64,000 nt of DNA from positions 1-64,000 of the forward strand of contig DATGHU010000051.1 in the NCBI GenBank assembly GCA_035307765.1, in the 5' to 3' direction. Each line of letters opens with the position of its first letter. Positions within the stretch are counted from its first letter, which is position 1. Below the pieces are notes generated by a model. That model saw only the letters and a program-made list of their open reading frames with translations, did no database searches and was not told the DNA's origin. The position numbers and the translations under genes are program-made. Positions 18,037-22,862 of the stretch are shown here, piece by piece. This stretch comes from a bacterium (lineage in GTDB: Bacteria > Sysuimicrobiota > Sysuimicrobiia > Sysuimicrobiales > Segetimicrobiaceae).

Positions 18037-18326
18037 CCCCCATATCCCACCCGGCGGCCCCGGAGCAGGCGATGATGGCCGCGGTGCCCAGGGTTAGGTC
18101 GATCTTCTCCCATACTTCTTCGAAGACTCCGGCCCCGCCACCGACTGCGCTAATCCGAAAGATAACCCAAACCATCACCCGGAATAGACTGAACCTCTCC
18201 CCCCTGCGGTAGGTAAGGGGTAGGGAAACGAGACATCCGGACGGATGGCGCACCTCATACGTTCGGAGGGTTCTTCGTCACGTTGCGGGGTCTGGTGGCA
18301 CTGAGCGACAGGAAGGAGCGCGCGGA
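18037..18326. other. Intergenic region before the ECF sigma gene
   Basis: About 290 bases. It should contain the promoter of the sigma-factor operon; GGAATA at about 18181 is only a loose ECF-like -35. Read leftward, the stretch around 18020-18130 has codon bias like a real gene (a peptide containing IDLTLGTAAIIACSG) but I recognise no family. It may be a scrap or chance. Confidence 0.3.
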
Positions 18327-18836
18327 ATGAACCGAGAGGATTTCGCCGGGATCTACGACGTGCAGTATCCGCGGGTGTTCCGCTACCTGCTGTGGCGGTT
18401 GCGCAACCGGGACGCCGCTGAGGAAATGACGGCGGAGGTGTTTGCCACGGCGCTCGCCGCATTTCAGAAGGGGACGACGCCGAAGCACGTCGGGAGCTGG
18501 CTCGTCGGCATCGCGGACCACTTCGCCTTGCGGTCCTGGCGGAGGCAGCGAACCGAGCGAGCGGCACTGTCCGAGAGTCCCGGGACCGAGCGGGATCCGG
18601 AGGAGCTGGTTCTGGCGCGATTGGAGCGGGATGAGATCTGGCGCTGCGTGGACGCGTTGAGCCCGGAGCATCAACAGGTCATCCTGCTTCGGATCGTTGC
18701 GGGGTTGAGCGCGCGCGAAGTCGGGGGGCTCACGGGAAAGACCGAGGAAGCCGTGAGGAGTCTGCAGCTTCGTGCGCTTCATGCATTCCGAGTTCGTTGG
18801 AGGGAGGCACAGGCCGATGCAGGGCTACGCAGCTGA
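18327..18836 (+). CDS. ECF-type RNA polymerase sigma factor
   Basis: A 169-residue extracytoplasmic-function sigma factor. Region 2 is at about residues 5-75 (FAGIYDVQYPRVFRYLLWRL, then DAAEEMTAEVFATAL), which melts and reads the -10 element. Region 4 is at about 110-160 (LSPEHQQVILLRIVAGLSAREVG, then GKTEEAVRSLQLRAL), a helix-turn-helix for the -35 element. AGGAAGGAG precedes ATG 18327. Its last 20 bases overlap the next gene, encoding a membrane protein with a cytoplasmic N-terminus, the classical sigma/regulator arrangement. Targets are unknown. Confidence 0.92.
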   Translation: MNREDFAGIYDVQYPRVFRYLLWRLRNRDAAEEMTAEVFATALAAFQKGTTPKHVGSWLVGIADHFALRSWRRQRTERAALSESPGTERDPEELVLARLERDEIWRCVDALSPEHQQVILLRIVAGLSAREVGGLTGKTEEAVRSLQLRALHAFRVRWREAQADAGLRS

Positions 18837-20781
18837 GCGTTCTGACCCGCTGGGCGAGAACCGCCTAGAGGCGCTGCTCGGGGATTTGCTGGGGAAGGAA
18901 CGCCCCGAGTGGCAGCGCATTACCGCGGAGACTCCGGACCTCGCCGAACTTGGCGAGGCAGCTCGGCGGCTCCGGGTCGTCAGCCTGCGGGCGCCGCTCC
19001 CCGAAGGGCGATTTGCGGTGCGGCAGGCGCTGCTGGTTGCGGCGCAGCAGGTCCGGGATTCCGTGGCGCCGGGGAGAGCGGCATGGCGGCGGGCGGGACT
19101 CTGGCTGAGCGTGGCGGCCCTCGTCGCGATCGCGGGAGCATTTGGTCTGGGCGCTGGTCTGCTCGATCCCCTCGCTCCGCCCTCCAGTCCGGTGTACGGT
19201 TTGAGACTCGCGGTGGACAAAGCGCGGGGCGTGTTCATCCCCGGCTACCCGGTAACGGGTCAGTACGCGCTGAACTACCAATTCTCGCCCGTCCAGGTGC
19301 CGAGCGCGGGTGGCGTGACCACGACCGATGGGAAAATCGGCGGGCTGCCCGTGCGGTTGACAATGACGGCGTCGGGCGCATGCCCGGCCGGCGGACCCTG
19401 CGGGAAGTTTGTCGTGGGGGTGGCCGGACTCTCGACCGAGGCACGCACACGGCTCGGGGAGCTTCGAGGGACGTTTGCCTGCGGTTCCGGTGGGTGCATC
19501 CTGACGGTGACCGAAGCGACGGGAATATTCGCTGAGGTGAACGGATCCCGAGTGTCGGTGGGAGGATCGGGGGCAAGCGAAGGGCAGCTGGGATCCAAGA
19601 TGAACTCGCTCGGGGATTGGGTGAATCATGTCGCCGCGGCGGCCGAGCAGTTGAAGGCGAGCGGGCTGCTGCCGGCTGGGCTCACGGTCGGAGACCTTGT
19701 CAAGGACGCGGTGACCAACGAGAAGACCGGCGGGCGCCCGGGTGGAAACGGCGGAACGGGGGCTCCCAAGGGCACCAATCTCAGCACGAAGCAGGGGGCC
19801 GTGGTTGACGCTCGCGATGGCATCCACGCCCGCGGATCCAGGGGAACGGGTCCCGTCGGCCCCGCCTCCAGCGCGAGCAGCATCGCCGGCGGTTCCTCGG
19901 TGCAGGGCGACACCGGAGTTCGTGGCGCCGCGCCCAATATCGACCTCGGCGTGCATGGTGGCATCGGCGTCACGGGCGACTCGCCTACGCCCAACCCTAG
20001 CATCGACTCGGCTTCCTCGGTCCCCACCGGTCGCAACCGTGTTGGTGCCGGTGCCACACTCGTAGGCGGCCCTGGCGCTCACCATGTTAACGTCGGCATC
20101 GGAGCACGCAGCGATAAGACAGGCGCCGGCGGCGAGGCCGCCGTCGGCGGCCTGGGCGTGGGCGTCGGTGGTGGGACCGGCGTAAAAGGCGGCAGCGGCA
20201 TCAGTGTCGGGGCCGGGGCGAACGTGAGCGGCAGCGGTGTCAGTGTGGGCGCCGGAGCGAACGTGAGCGGCAGCGGCGTCAGTGTCGGCGCCGGGGCGAA
20301 TGTGACCGGCAGCGGCGTCAGTGTCGGTGCCGGGACCACCGTGAACGGCGGGGGTGGAGGCGTCATCGTGACCAACGGGGTTACCCTGGGCACCAGCGGC
20401 GTGAGCGGGGGGGGCACTGTGAGCACAGGTGGCAGTGGCGCTGGAGGAGGGACCGCCGGTAGCAGCGAGGCCGGCGGCGCCAACGTAGGTGGGAGTTCGA
20501 GCGGCGGGGCCAGCGCGAGCGGTGGGGCCAGTGCCAGCGGGAGCGGGGCCAGCGCGAGCGGTGGGGCCAGTGCCAGCGGGAGCGGGGTTACCGCGAGCGG
20601 CGGGGTCACTGCCAGTGGGGGCGGCGCCAGCAGCACAGGCAGTGGGGGTATCGGCATCGGCATTGGCATTGGGCTCAACCTTGGTGGAATCAACATCGGT
20701 GTGGGGCTCAACCTCGGCGGTGGTGGGGGCGTTTCTGGAGGCGGGGGTACGAGCGGGGGCACCGGCAACAACTCGCGGTAG
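18817..20781 (+). CDS. Single-TM membrane protein with long Gly/Ser-rich repeat domain, partner of the ECF sigma factor
   Basis: A 654-residue protein. Residues 1-90 are cytoplasmic and helical (RLEALLGDLLGKERPEWQRI, RFAVRQALLVAAQQVRD). One transmembrane helix follows at about 95-113 (LWLSVAALVAIAGAFGLGAG). PPSSPVYGLRLAVDKAR next to it resembles the DUF5667-type segment common in proteins encoded after ECF sigma genes. The rest is extracytoplasmic: a small domain with a likely disulphide pair (GGPCGKF; FACGSGGCIL), then about 330 residues of Gly/Ser/Ala-rich repeats. ATG 18817 overlaps the sigma gene and follows GGAGGGAGG. I infer an anti-sigma or envelope-sensing role; the repeats could be a flexible or beta-structured surface stalk. 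No ZAS anti-sigma zinc motif (HxxxCxxC) is visible. Confidence 0.7.
   Translation: MQGYAAERSDPLGENRLEALLGDLLGKERPEWQRITAETPDLAELGEAARRLRVVSLRAPLPEGRFAVRQALLVAAQQVRDSVAPGRAAWRRAGLWLSVAALVAIAGAFGLGAGLLDPLAPPSSPVYGLRLAVDKARGVFIPGYPVTGQYALNYQFSPVQVPSAGGVTTTDGKIGGLPVRLTMTASGACPAGGPCGKFVVGVAGLSTEARTRLGELRGTFACGSGGCILTVTEATGIFAEVNGSRVSVGGSGASEGQLGSKMNSLGDWVNHVAAAAEQLKASGLLPAGLTVGDLVKDAVTNEKTGGRPGGNGGTGAPKGTNLSTKQGAVVDARDGIHARGSRGTGPVGPASSASSIAGGSSVQGDTGVRGAAPNIDLGVHGGIGVTGDSPTPNPSIDSASSVPTGRNRVGAGATLVGGPGAHHVNVGIGARSDKTGAGGEAAVGGLGVGVGGGTGVKGGSGISVGAGANVSGSGVSVGAGANVSGSGVSVGAGANVTGSGVSVGAGTTVNGGGGGVIVTNGVTLGTSGVSGGGTVSTGGSGAGGGTAGSSEAGGANVGGSSSGGASASGGASASGSGASASGGASASGSGVTASGGVTASGGGASSTGSGGIGIGIGIGLNLGGINIGVGLNLGGGGGVSGGGGTSGGTGNNSR
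20191..20346 (+). repeat. 36-bp in-frame tandem repeats encoding GSGVSVGAGANV
   Basis: Just over four copies of a 36-base unit encode G-S-G-[IV]-S-V-G-A-G-[AT]-[NT]-V. The copies differ mainly at synonymous third positions (GCC/GCG, GGC/GGT), so the protein sequence is kept while the DNA drifts. The unit lies within the Gly/Ser-rich part of the ECF-associated membrane protein. Confidence 0.85.
20503..20645 (+). repeat. Gly-Ala-Ser short repeats (GGASAS / SGSG)
   Basis: Units such as GGASASGGASASGSGASAS and the variant GVTASGG follow each other in frame. One 42-base segment (AGCGCGAGCGGTGGGGCCAG onward) occurs twice almost identically, which suggests recent duplication. It is part of the same extracytoplasmic domain as the 36-bp repeats. 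Confidence 0.75.
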
Positions 20782-20798: not shown

Positions 20799-22862
20799 AT
20801 GCGATCATCCGCGAGCGAGGTCCACAAGCATGGCGGCACGGGAAAGCCGGTGCGGCCGCTTCACCGCGTCGCCAACGTTCTCCAAAGCGGGGAGGGCGCG
20901 AGCGAGGATCTGGCCCACTACCGCGAGTTGTTCGAGAACGCCAGCGACTTGATCTACACGACTGACCTGGCGGGGAATTTCACATCTATTAATCCCGTTG
21001 GGGAAAAACTCACGCGGTACACGCGCGAGGAACTCCTCGCATCGAATATCGGTCAGATCGTTGCGGCGGAGAGCCTCAGCACGGTTCTGCAAATGCTGGA
21101 CCACGCCGTCAGGGGCTTGAGCTCCACGACCTGCGAACTCGAAGTCCTGGCCAAGGACGGCCGTCAGGTCCCGCTGGAGGTATGCTCGCGTCCAATCACC
21201 CAGGACGGGGAGGTGGTGGGGGTCCACGGGATCGGCCGCGACATCAGCATGCGCAAGCGGACCGATCGGAAGTTCCAGCAGCGCACCGCTCATTTGGAGG
21301 CGTTGAACGCGATCGTTGCGGCCGCGGATGCCGCGCCCGATCTTCCACTGCTGCTGACGGTGGTGATCGACCGGATCCTGGAGGCGCTCGCCCTCGGGAT
21401 GGGCGGGATCTGGGCGGGCGACCACCACGTCGTTCGAGGCCTCTCCCCAGAGATCGGGAAGACCGTGGTGGAGGCCGCTCAGTCCTCTCAGCAGAAGACC
21501 GCCAGCGCGGCCAGCGTAGCCGACTGGCAGGCAACGTCTGGGAACGGGGCACACCCGCTGGCGGAGAGGTGGATCCACATTGGCATCCGGGCGTCCCTCA
21601 CCGTGCCCATCGTGGCCGAGGGCCGGTGTATCGGGGCGTTGATCTTGGCCTCCCCGTACCCCAAGCCATGGACATGGGAGGAAGTCGTCCTCGCTGAGGC
21701 GGTCGGACAGCAAGTCGCGGCGACGGCCGAGGGCCTTCGCATCTTCCAGGAGTCCCAGCAGCACGCCGGGTTGATGAAGCGCCTGGTCGCGCTGAGCGAC
21801 ACTTTGAATCGTCCCGCCATCGTCGCGGACATCGCGACGGCCATCGGACAGGCCGCGCTGAGTCTGAGCGGGGCGACGGGAGGGGCCGTCTACCTCCGCG
21901 GACCGGAAGGCGCCGTCGCCTGCCCGTGGGCCAAAGGGCTGCCCGCTGATTCCGCCATCCCCGACCGCCTGCCGGAGGGGAGTGCGGGGTTGTTTTCGGA
22001 CGTGTCGGCCTTAGCTCCGGACGACGCGATCCGGGGCTTCGCGAGCCGTCAGGGCTTCCGGGCCCTCGGGATCTGGCCGCTCACCTACGAGGGACGGGAG
22101 ATCGCCGGGGTGCTGTGTTACTACGACGAGCCCCATGAGTGGTCGAAGCCGGAGCGGGAGGTCTTTCAGACGTTCACCTGGCAGGCCGCTTCCGCCCTCG
22201 AGAACGCGCGGCTCTACGAGGTGCAGGTCGAGCGCGCGCGCGAACTGGAAACGCTGCACCACAACCTCGAGGAATCATACATCCAGATGGTGCTGGCTCT
22301 GGCACGGGCGATGGACGCCCGAGACGCGTACACCGGAGACCACAGCGACCGCCTGGCCACACTGGCCGATCGCGTGGTCCGGGCGCTCGACCTTCCGGAT
22401 GACGAGGCGAAGGACATCCGCTGGGCGGCGCTCCTGCACGACATCGGGAAGATCGGTTCTCCGGACGGCATCCTGTGCAAACCCGGGCCGTTGACCGAGG
22501 ACGAATGGATGATCATGCGCCGGCACCCGATCGTCGGCGAGGAAATCCTGCGTCCCGTAGAACGCATGCGAGGGGTGGCCAAGATCGTCCGCCATCACCA
22601 GGAGAAATGGGACGGCAGCGGATACCCCGACGGCCTCAGTGGGAAAGCGATCCCCCTTGGGGCTCGCATTCTGGCGGTGGTCGATGCCTACAGCGCGATT
22701 GTTGACGAGCGCCCTTACAAGAAGTCGGGTACCCAAGAAGAGGCGGAGGCGGAAATCCGGCGTTGTGCGGGGGTGCAGTTCGATCCAGAGATTGTGGAGG
22801 TCTTCTGTCGAACACTGAGCGGTGACCATCAGGCATCCGACGCGGTCCTCCTCCGTCGGTGA
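20799..22862 (+). CDS. PAS-GAF-HD-GYP sensor phosphodiesterase
   Basis: A 687-residue cytoplasmic signalling protein with no transmembrane helix. A PAS domain lies at about 45-160 (FENASDLIYTTDLAGNFTSI, ending with VVGVHGIGRDISMRKR). Two GAF-like domains occupy about 175-320 and 325-480. The C-terminal HD-GYP domain carries H547-D548 in LLHDIGKIG, HHQEKWDGSGYPDGL with GYP at 608-610, and a DAYSAI segment. HD-GYP proteins hydrolyse cyclic di-GMP (some act on cGAMP). ATG 20799 lies 17 bases after the repeat protein, so it may be co-transcribed with the sigma operon. Confidence 0.92.
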   Translation: MRSSASEVHKHGGTGKPVRPLHRVANVLQSGEGASEDLAHYRELFENASDLIYTTDLAGNFTSINPVGEKLTRYTREELLASNIGQIVAAESLSTVLQMLDHAVRGLSSTTCELEVLAKDGRQVPLEVCSRPITQDGEVVGVHGIGRDISMRKRTDRKFQQRTAHLEALNAIVAAADAAPDLPLLLTVVIDRILEALALGMGGIWAGDHHVVRGLSPEIGKTVVEAAQSSQQKTASAASVADWQATSGNGAHPLAERWIHIGIRASLTVPIVAEGRCIGALILASPYPKPWTWEEVVLAEAVGQQVAATAEGLRIFQESQQHAGLMKRLVALSDTLNRPAIVADIATAIGQAALSLSGATGGAVYLRGPEGAVACPWAKGLPADSAIPDRLPEGSAGLFSDVSALAPDDAIRGFASRQGFRALGIWPLTYEGREIAGVLCYYDEPHEWSKPEREVFQTFTWQAASALENARLYEVQVERARELETLHHNLEESYIQMVLALARAMDARDAYTGDHSDRLATLADRVVRALDLPDDEAKDIRWAALLHDIGKIGSPDGILCKPGPLTEDEWMIMRRHPIVGEEILRPVERMRGVAKIVRHHQEKWDGSGYPDGLSGKAIPLGARILAVVDAYSAIVDERPYKKSGTQEEAEAEIRRCAGVQFDPEIVEVFCRTLSGDHQASDAVLLRR

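Follow-up and report, generated by a model that had tools for sequence, protein, structure and literature searches.

Which part of a membrane-bound anti-sigma factor receives the signal, and by what mode its head would bind the sigma factor, are the questions raised by a gene that overlaps an ECF sigma factor gene in the window analysed here, a 64,000-nucleotide stretch of contig C51 from the 3.8-Mb draft genome (G000) of an uncultured soil bacterium. The original prediction was that this gene encodes a cytoplasmic head, one membrane helix and a very long exported region made of 12-residue Gly/Ser repeats, with a possible role in sensing wall mechanics and a possibly new way of binding the sigma factor. 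The open reading frame (18817-20781, plus strand; 654 codons) starts within the 3' end of the sigma gene (18327-18836, plus strand), the two overlapping, as had been described, over a length of 20 bases, and a GGAGG sequence stands about 10 nt 5' of the ATG at 18817. Its 654-aa product comprises, in this order, an anti-sigma head, a transmembrane helix, a DUF5667 stub, an exported beta domain and a Gly/Ser-rich tail.

The sigma factor (169 aa) gave matches above the Pfam cut-offs to PF04542, PF04545 and PF08281 (Sigma70_r2/r4), that is, to regions 2 and 4 only, which places it among the ECF sigma factors. Its best-scoring model of 69 NCBIfam families is TIGR02952, yet the score of 86.6 bits lies under the curated equivalog cut-off of 206.45, and from this sequence comparison we call the protein BldN-like, not BldN. 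In the PDB it matches best 6dxo_A, which is sigma-BldN in complex with RsbN (E 5.7e-13, the second-best match having 3.4e-6). The overlapping gene opens with a predicted cytoplasmic sigma-binding head (aa 1-89; 18817-19083, plus strand), the homologues of which adjoin a homologous sigma gene in 10/10 loci. The assignment of its product as the anti-sigma factor of the overlapping sigma factor, as originally predicted, is thus well supported by position. AlphaFold2 predicts helices in the head at residues 12-24, 40-58 and 65-81 (pLDDT mostly about 60-75). The predicted head and single membrane helix were likewise borne out: one strong hydrophobic segment is present in the protein, at about aa 90-116 (19084-19164, plus strand; Kyte-Doolittle maximum 2.07), where the AlphaFold2 model draws a helix at aa 90-108.

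Zinc-binding class I anti-sigma factors (ZAS/ASDI) are defined by an HxxxCxxC motif. This motif was not found in aa 1-93, which contain no Cys or His at all, so the absence of a canonical zinc motif was correctly noted. However, a zinc-free class is already described: ASDIII, that of RsbN, comprises zinc-free, membrane-anchored anti-sigma factors with a three-helix domain (PMC7406223, PMC8103513). Like RsbN and sigma-BldN of Streptomyces, the pair described here consists of a BldN-like ECF sigma factor beside a membrane-anchored anti-sigma factor devoid of the zinc motif (membrane helix at about aa 90-116; neighbouring sigma gene in 10/10 loci), and its head has, with moderate confidence, three predicted helices, the number described for RsbN. 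It differs from RsbN in that its exported part consists of a folded beta domain and a 350-aa Gly/Ser tail acquired by gene fusion. Sequence searches of the PDB with the head alone and with the head alignment as queries did not return RsbN. As sigma-BldN, solved together with RsbN, is the nearest relative of the sigma factor among known structures, the head, being zinc-free, most likely conforms by analogy to the known RsbN class. A zinc-free head is expected for a BldN-like sigma factor and is therefore, by itself, not evidence of a new binding mode, which weakens that suggestion. A comparable plan, namely a sigma-binding N-terminus, one transmembrane helix and an exported C-terminal module, is found in the RsgI anti-sigma-I factors of Clostridium thermocellum and Bacillus, the exported sensors of which are CBM, GH or PA14 modules placed behind a periplasmic domain that is autoproteolytic (SEAL) in the studied cases (PMC12203970). 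The resemblance is one of plan only: RsgI proteins serve the sigma-I family, whereas the window protein belongs with another sigma lineage, and neither the RsgI N-terminal domain nor the SEAL domain was found in it with Pfam and NCBIfam, which gave no match of any kind at E <= 1.

The Gly/Ser-rich low-complexity tail, delimited by its Gly content and by pLDDT values mostly below 50, covers aa 306-654 (19732-20778, plus strand). Measured over aa 303-654 (352 aa; 34% Gly), its self-match at 13 residues is 0.319, compared with a shuffle mean of 0.170; as this value exceeds those of all 2000 shuffles (largest 0.224 at period 13 and 0.253 over any period from 4 to 29), the repetition is not due to chance. 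At period 12 the self-match is 0.138, under the mean of the period-13 shuffles, and the unit is one of 13 residues (39 nt) rather than 12. The tail is thus long, Gly-rich and repetitive as stated, but its tandem array is confined to aa 458-511 (54 aa) and aa 563-605 (43 aa), corresponding to a block of 4.1 copies of GSGVSVGAGANVS (20189-20349, plus strand; TRF, 39-nt period, 86% match) and a second 39-nt block of 3.3 copies of GGASASGGASASG (20504-20631, plus strand; TRF). The remainder is of low complexity without clear periodicity. Structure prediction, which had been proposed as a check of the repeats, gave a similar picture: the 13-aa repeats form regularly spaced short strands at about aa 460-505 (pLDDT 61-70), but the rest of the tail lies mostly below pLDDT 50 and is predicted to be disordered. 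The 13-aa unit, SVGAGANVSGSGV, looks similar to those of the left-handed beta-roll heads of YadA type. We do not claim membership, as the protein differs from these in having only about four units and neither trimeric stalk nor anchor; the best PDB sequence match of the repeat block is not significant (1p9h, PDB name Invasin, which we take to be the YadA head; E 5.5). The comparison of repeats, made here between species, gave a unit of 13 aa in the window, 19 aa in the related genome G002 and GN runs in unfused homologues, and among these sequences no part of the protein is less conserved than the tail.

The conserved portion of the exported region is, at the sequence level, a folded beta domain that the description of this region as repeats had overlooked, along with the DUF5667 stub preceding it. 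This domain (aa 148-305; 19258-19731, plus strand), defined by alignment A1 and AlphaFold2, is predicted with a pLDDT of 85 when folded alone and of 92-97 within the full-length model, as a non-repetitive fold with roughly eight beta strands and, at its C-terminus, two helices. Of its four cysteines, C222/C227 are invariant across the alignment and C189/C195 are present or absent as a pair, a pattern expected of an exported (non-cytoplasmic) disulfide domain. The domain has no match in Pfam, NCBIfam or the PDB, and Foldseek, run with the domain alone and with the full-length model, gave nothing below E 0.05, the closest weak resemblance being to streptavidin-type barrels. Searches of 43 genomes of the order with the A1 profile found it in two genera only, of one family; as judged from these sequences, it represents an undescribed, unnamed domain family so far present in one family of Sysuimicrobiota. 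It is also found without a sigma neighbour (G010:C109). A divergent relative that carries a GN tail, P0001 (hhalign probability 96%), has relatives in 4/4 genera of the family.

The origin of this arrangement can be read from loci at which sigma factor, anti-sigma factor and secreted protein are encoded by three successive genes. Six such loci were found: a paralogous locus in the window genome (G000:C3) and five in the sister genus g2 (G010:C131, G010:C16, G008:C125, G008:C108 and G005:C68). Their anti-sigma factors exceed the Pfam cut-off of DUF5667 (PF18915) in 4/4 cases tested, and a genome search placed above-cut-off DUF5667 matches at 6/6 of the loci. Their secreted proteins have signal-peptide-like starts that end where the beta domain begins, followed by a beta domain 36-48% identical to that of the window and by a Gly/Asn-rich tail (49-60% Gly and 20-37% Asn in the five measured). 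The window protein shares with the DUF5667 anti-sigma factors of the same family the head, the transmembrane helix, the first DUF5667 helix and the sigma neighbour, but has lost most of DUF5667 and carries the secreted domain and tail in its place. What is left is a truncated stub of about 23 residues between the membrane helix and the beta domain (about aa 122-144, PSSPVYGLRLAVDKARGVFIPGY; 19180-19248, plus strand), which aligns to the first DUF5667 helix of homologues that match PF18915 above the Pfam cut-off; the window protein itself and its counterparts in G002 and G001 gave no Pfam match to this family. At the junction, the window sequence ...PSSPVYGLRLAVDKARGVFIPGYPVTGQYALNYQF can be compared with DUF5667 helix 1 of the paralogue, SPASPWYGARVALEELEVALIPD, and with the mature start of the paralogous secreted protein, GWTA/QPDYSLNYQF: head, transmembrane helix and first DUF5667 helix align with the anti-sigma factor, and the residues right after them with the secreted protein from its mature N-terminus onwards. 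On these alignments, the second and third genes of the locus have become joined in frame in the window gene, with loss of about 70 DUF5667 residues, a spacer and the signal peptide.

The fused reading frame and its junction are intact both in the window genome and in G002, their proteins being 57% identical over aa 3-304. Nucleotide differences between the two are heaviest at third codon positions (within the beta domain, 0.36, 0.20 and 0.53 of sites differ at positions 1, 2 and 3), which indicates that the fused frame is under constraint in these two species. A third genome, G003, probably carries the same fusion; the call is limited to probable because the gene is split across two contig ends, the head closing one contig and the beta domain opening another, where a PAS protein follows. 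In the domain tree a branch (100/99) splits the fused-gene rows from the separate-gene rows, and in the sigma tree the three-gene sigma factors group at 89/88. These sequences are consistent with a single fusion origin, in three species of the genus Ca. Segetimicrobium (Sysuimicrobiota). We infer that the fused state is derived, since the fused proteins retain a fragment of DUF5667, itself a known domain of wider occurrence. The G001 orthologue keeps the sigma factor and the head, and its protein stops soon after the stub, without DUF5667, beta domain or tail; the exported domain is therefore not always needed. Every genome used is a draft assembly, and the ones with titled records are metagenome-assembled; a contig search found relatives with the sigma factor as query and none with the fused protein as query. 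DUF5667 proteins of other phyla (G069, G101, G115) have no sigma neighbour within the stretches read, so that DUF5667 alone does not mean an anti-sigma factor; within the literature collection searched, no paper names this domain.

Downstream of the fused gene, after a gap of 17 nt, lies a gene (20799-22862, plus strand) for a PAS-GAF-GAF-HD-GYP protein identified with Pfam, a predicted c-di-GMP phosphodiesterase with an HD_5 match (E 2.5e-40) and both the HDIGK and GYP motifs. The two genes probably form one operon. A PAS protein gene also stands 3' of the fused gene in G002 and of the domain/tail gene in G003, and, on account of this recurrence and of the adjacent HD-GYP gene, we regard c-di-GMP turnover as a probable output of this operon.

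Taken together, we consider it probable that the window gene encodes a membrane-anchored anti-sigma factor that arose by fusion of an anti-sigma gene with a secreted-protein gene, and in which the exported beta domain acts as signal receiver. The fusion itself is read from sequence, through the three-gene relatives, the fused state, the junction and a tree that fits one fusion event. An anti-sigma gene encoding head, membrane helix and DUF5667 would have fused in frame with the next operon gene, that of the secreted protein; the head would keep the sigma factor membrane-bound and inactive as RsbN does, without zinc; the beta domain and flexible tail would have taken over signal reception from DUF5667, most of which is gone; and binding of a ligand or partner to the exported part, or its proteolysis, would release the sigma factor, which may then transcribe the operon that encodes it, HD-GYP gene included. 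Since unfused copies accompany the sigma/anti-sigma pair elsewhere, the fusion also points to an action of the secreted protein on the anti-sigma factor where the three genes are separate, just as RseB acts on RseA, instead of a role as regulon product only; it suggests further that the cell gauges an exported protein when choosing which genes to switch on. A more specific version, in which the regulated surface protein and the anti-sigma factor form a single molecule, its exported beta domain and Gly-rich tail serve as product and gauge alike, the state of the surface protein is read directly through the fused anti-sigma factor, and the unfused secreted domain is a diffusible ligand of DUF5667, is put forward tentatively, as a rather unlikely case; if true, DUF5667 gains a role and a binding partner. 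What is new here is thus a BldN-type pair whose sensor has been swapped by fusion to a neighbouring secreted protein, the zinc-free class itself being already known. Within one anti-sigma lineage the sensing end exists in three states, as DUF5667, as a fused secreted domain with tail, or as nothing, and a testable Rosetta-stone prediction follows, namely that secreted beta domains of the unnamed family work together with anti-sigma factors of the DUF5667 type. Both the signal sensed by DUF5667 and the activation of BldN-like sigma factors outside actinobacteria thereby become open to direct test.

The exported part might be cargo instead of a sensor: the sigma factor would control a surface protein, which the fusion tethers while the head still inhibits, the tail serving as passive linker or adhesin. 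In Streptomyces, sigma-BldN directs the surface sheath proteins, chaplins and rodlins (PMC4255298), a precedent for this reading, to which can be added the related secreted proteins that exist away from sigma genes and a tail that is mostly predicted disordered and varies between species in length, unit and composition. However, DUF5667, in the sensor position, has been lost, so a non-signalling replacement would leave the anti-sigma factor without an evident input, and the beta domain has stayed folded and constrained after the fusion; cargo is, in our view, possible but not probable. The reading originally proposed, in which sensing would fall to the tail, its repeats forming a stalk that responds to wall mechanics or binds a surface polymer, draws on the length of the tail and on the regular short strands predicted for the 13-aa block (aa 462-503, pLDDT 61-70). 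This order is predicted in only about 50 residues, neither unit nor length is conserved, and the G001 protein has no tail, which makes this reading improbable; we think it likelier that the tail is a flexible extension than that it is tuned to sense mechanical force. That the gene is a pseudogene in decay, or an artefact of assembly, would fit the draft state of the genomes and the loss of the exported part in G001, but the window genome and G002 share the junction, an intact reading frame, third-position-biased substitutions and a conserved downstream gene, and we regard this explanation as highly improbable.

A link with type IV pili would give the secreted protein yet another role, as a pseudopilin accessory, with the sigma factor controlling pilus genes and c-di-GMP (HD-GYP, MshEN-type PilB) as a second input. 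Two of the three-gene loci, G008:C108 and G010:C16, are flanked by pseudopilin genes, which are also present on the G000:C3 contig, and a gene for a PilB-type ATPase with an MshEN domain lies 3' of the G001 sigma/head pair. The pseudopilins concern only three loci, though, and no pilin motif was found in the 64-kb window or in the sequence read around the remaining domain or pair loci. As these other loci showed no pilin, pilus function is a lead only, and we hold the link to be doubtful. Setting it beside the other readings, we retain the exported beta domain as the probable signal receiver.

Upstream of the sigma gene, by about 80 bp, stands a perfect palindrome, CATCCGGACGGATG (18234-18247), a candidate regulator site. 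The pattern CATCCGNNCGGATG has three perfect sites in the 3.8-Mb genome, compared with none for a reversed-pattern control, and the palindrome also lies 5' of the orthologous sigma gene in G002 (L047:1944-1957). An imperfect second copy, CATACGTTCGGAGG (18256-18269; two mismatches), follows 22 bp on, and is suggestive by position alone, two-mismatch matches being common by chance in the window. A regulator shared by the fused-gene operon and surface polysaccharide is possible. Inspection by eye for a common ECF promoter upstream of the sigma genes, with some stretches taken at wrong starts, yielded only CGTCACG-like matches and the palindrome, on which we build no promoter assignment.

Several minor observations were made along the way. 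The other two perfect palindromes both lie on contig C16, one inside a gene of an apparent polysaccharide cluster and one 5' of a sugar-epimerase-like gene. In G006, a related sigma gene (L093, 5905-6474) has no recognisable anti-sigma gene, and the short frame after it, which ends in a GGGQGNGG-like sequence, is possibly an operon remnant. The G000:C3 contig, which bears the unfused sigma paralogue, also bears a PilB/PilC/pilin cluster (L094) and, in L056 (6515-11099), the gene for the secreted GN-tail protein P0001 (6515-7225), with three pseudopilin-like genes and then a PilX-like one directly downstream; a secreted-looking reading frame with perfect NGGQG repeats lies at the contig edge (L056, 3-365, minus strand). 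At the contig start of the window itself, a short T2SSF (PilC/GspF) fragment (183-323) is probably a gene remnant.
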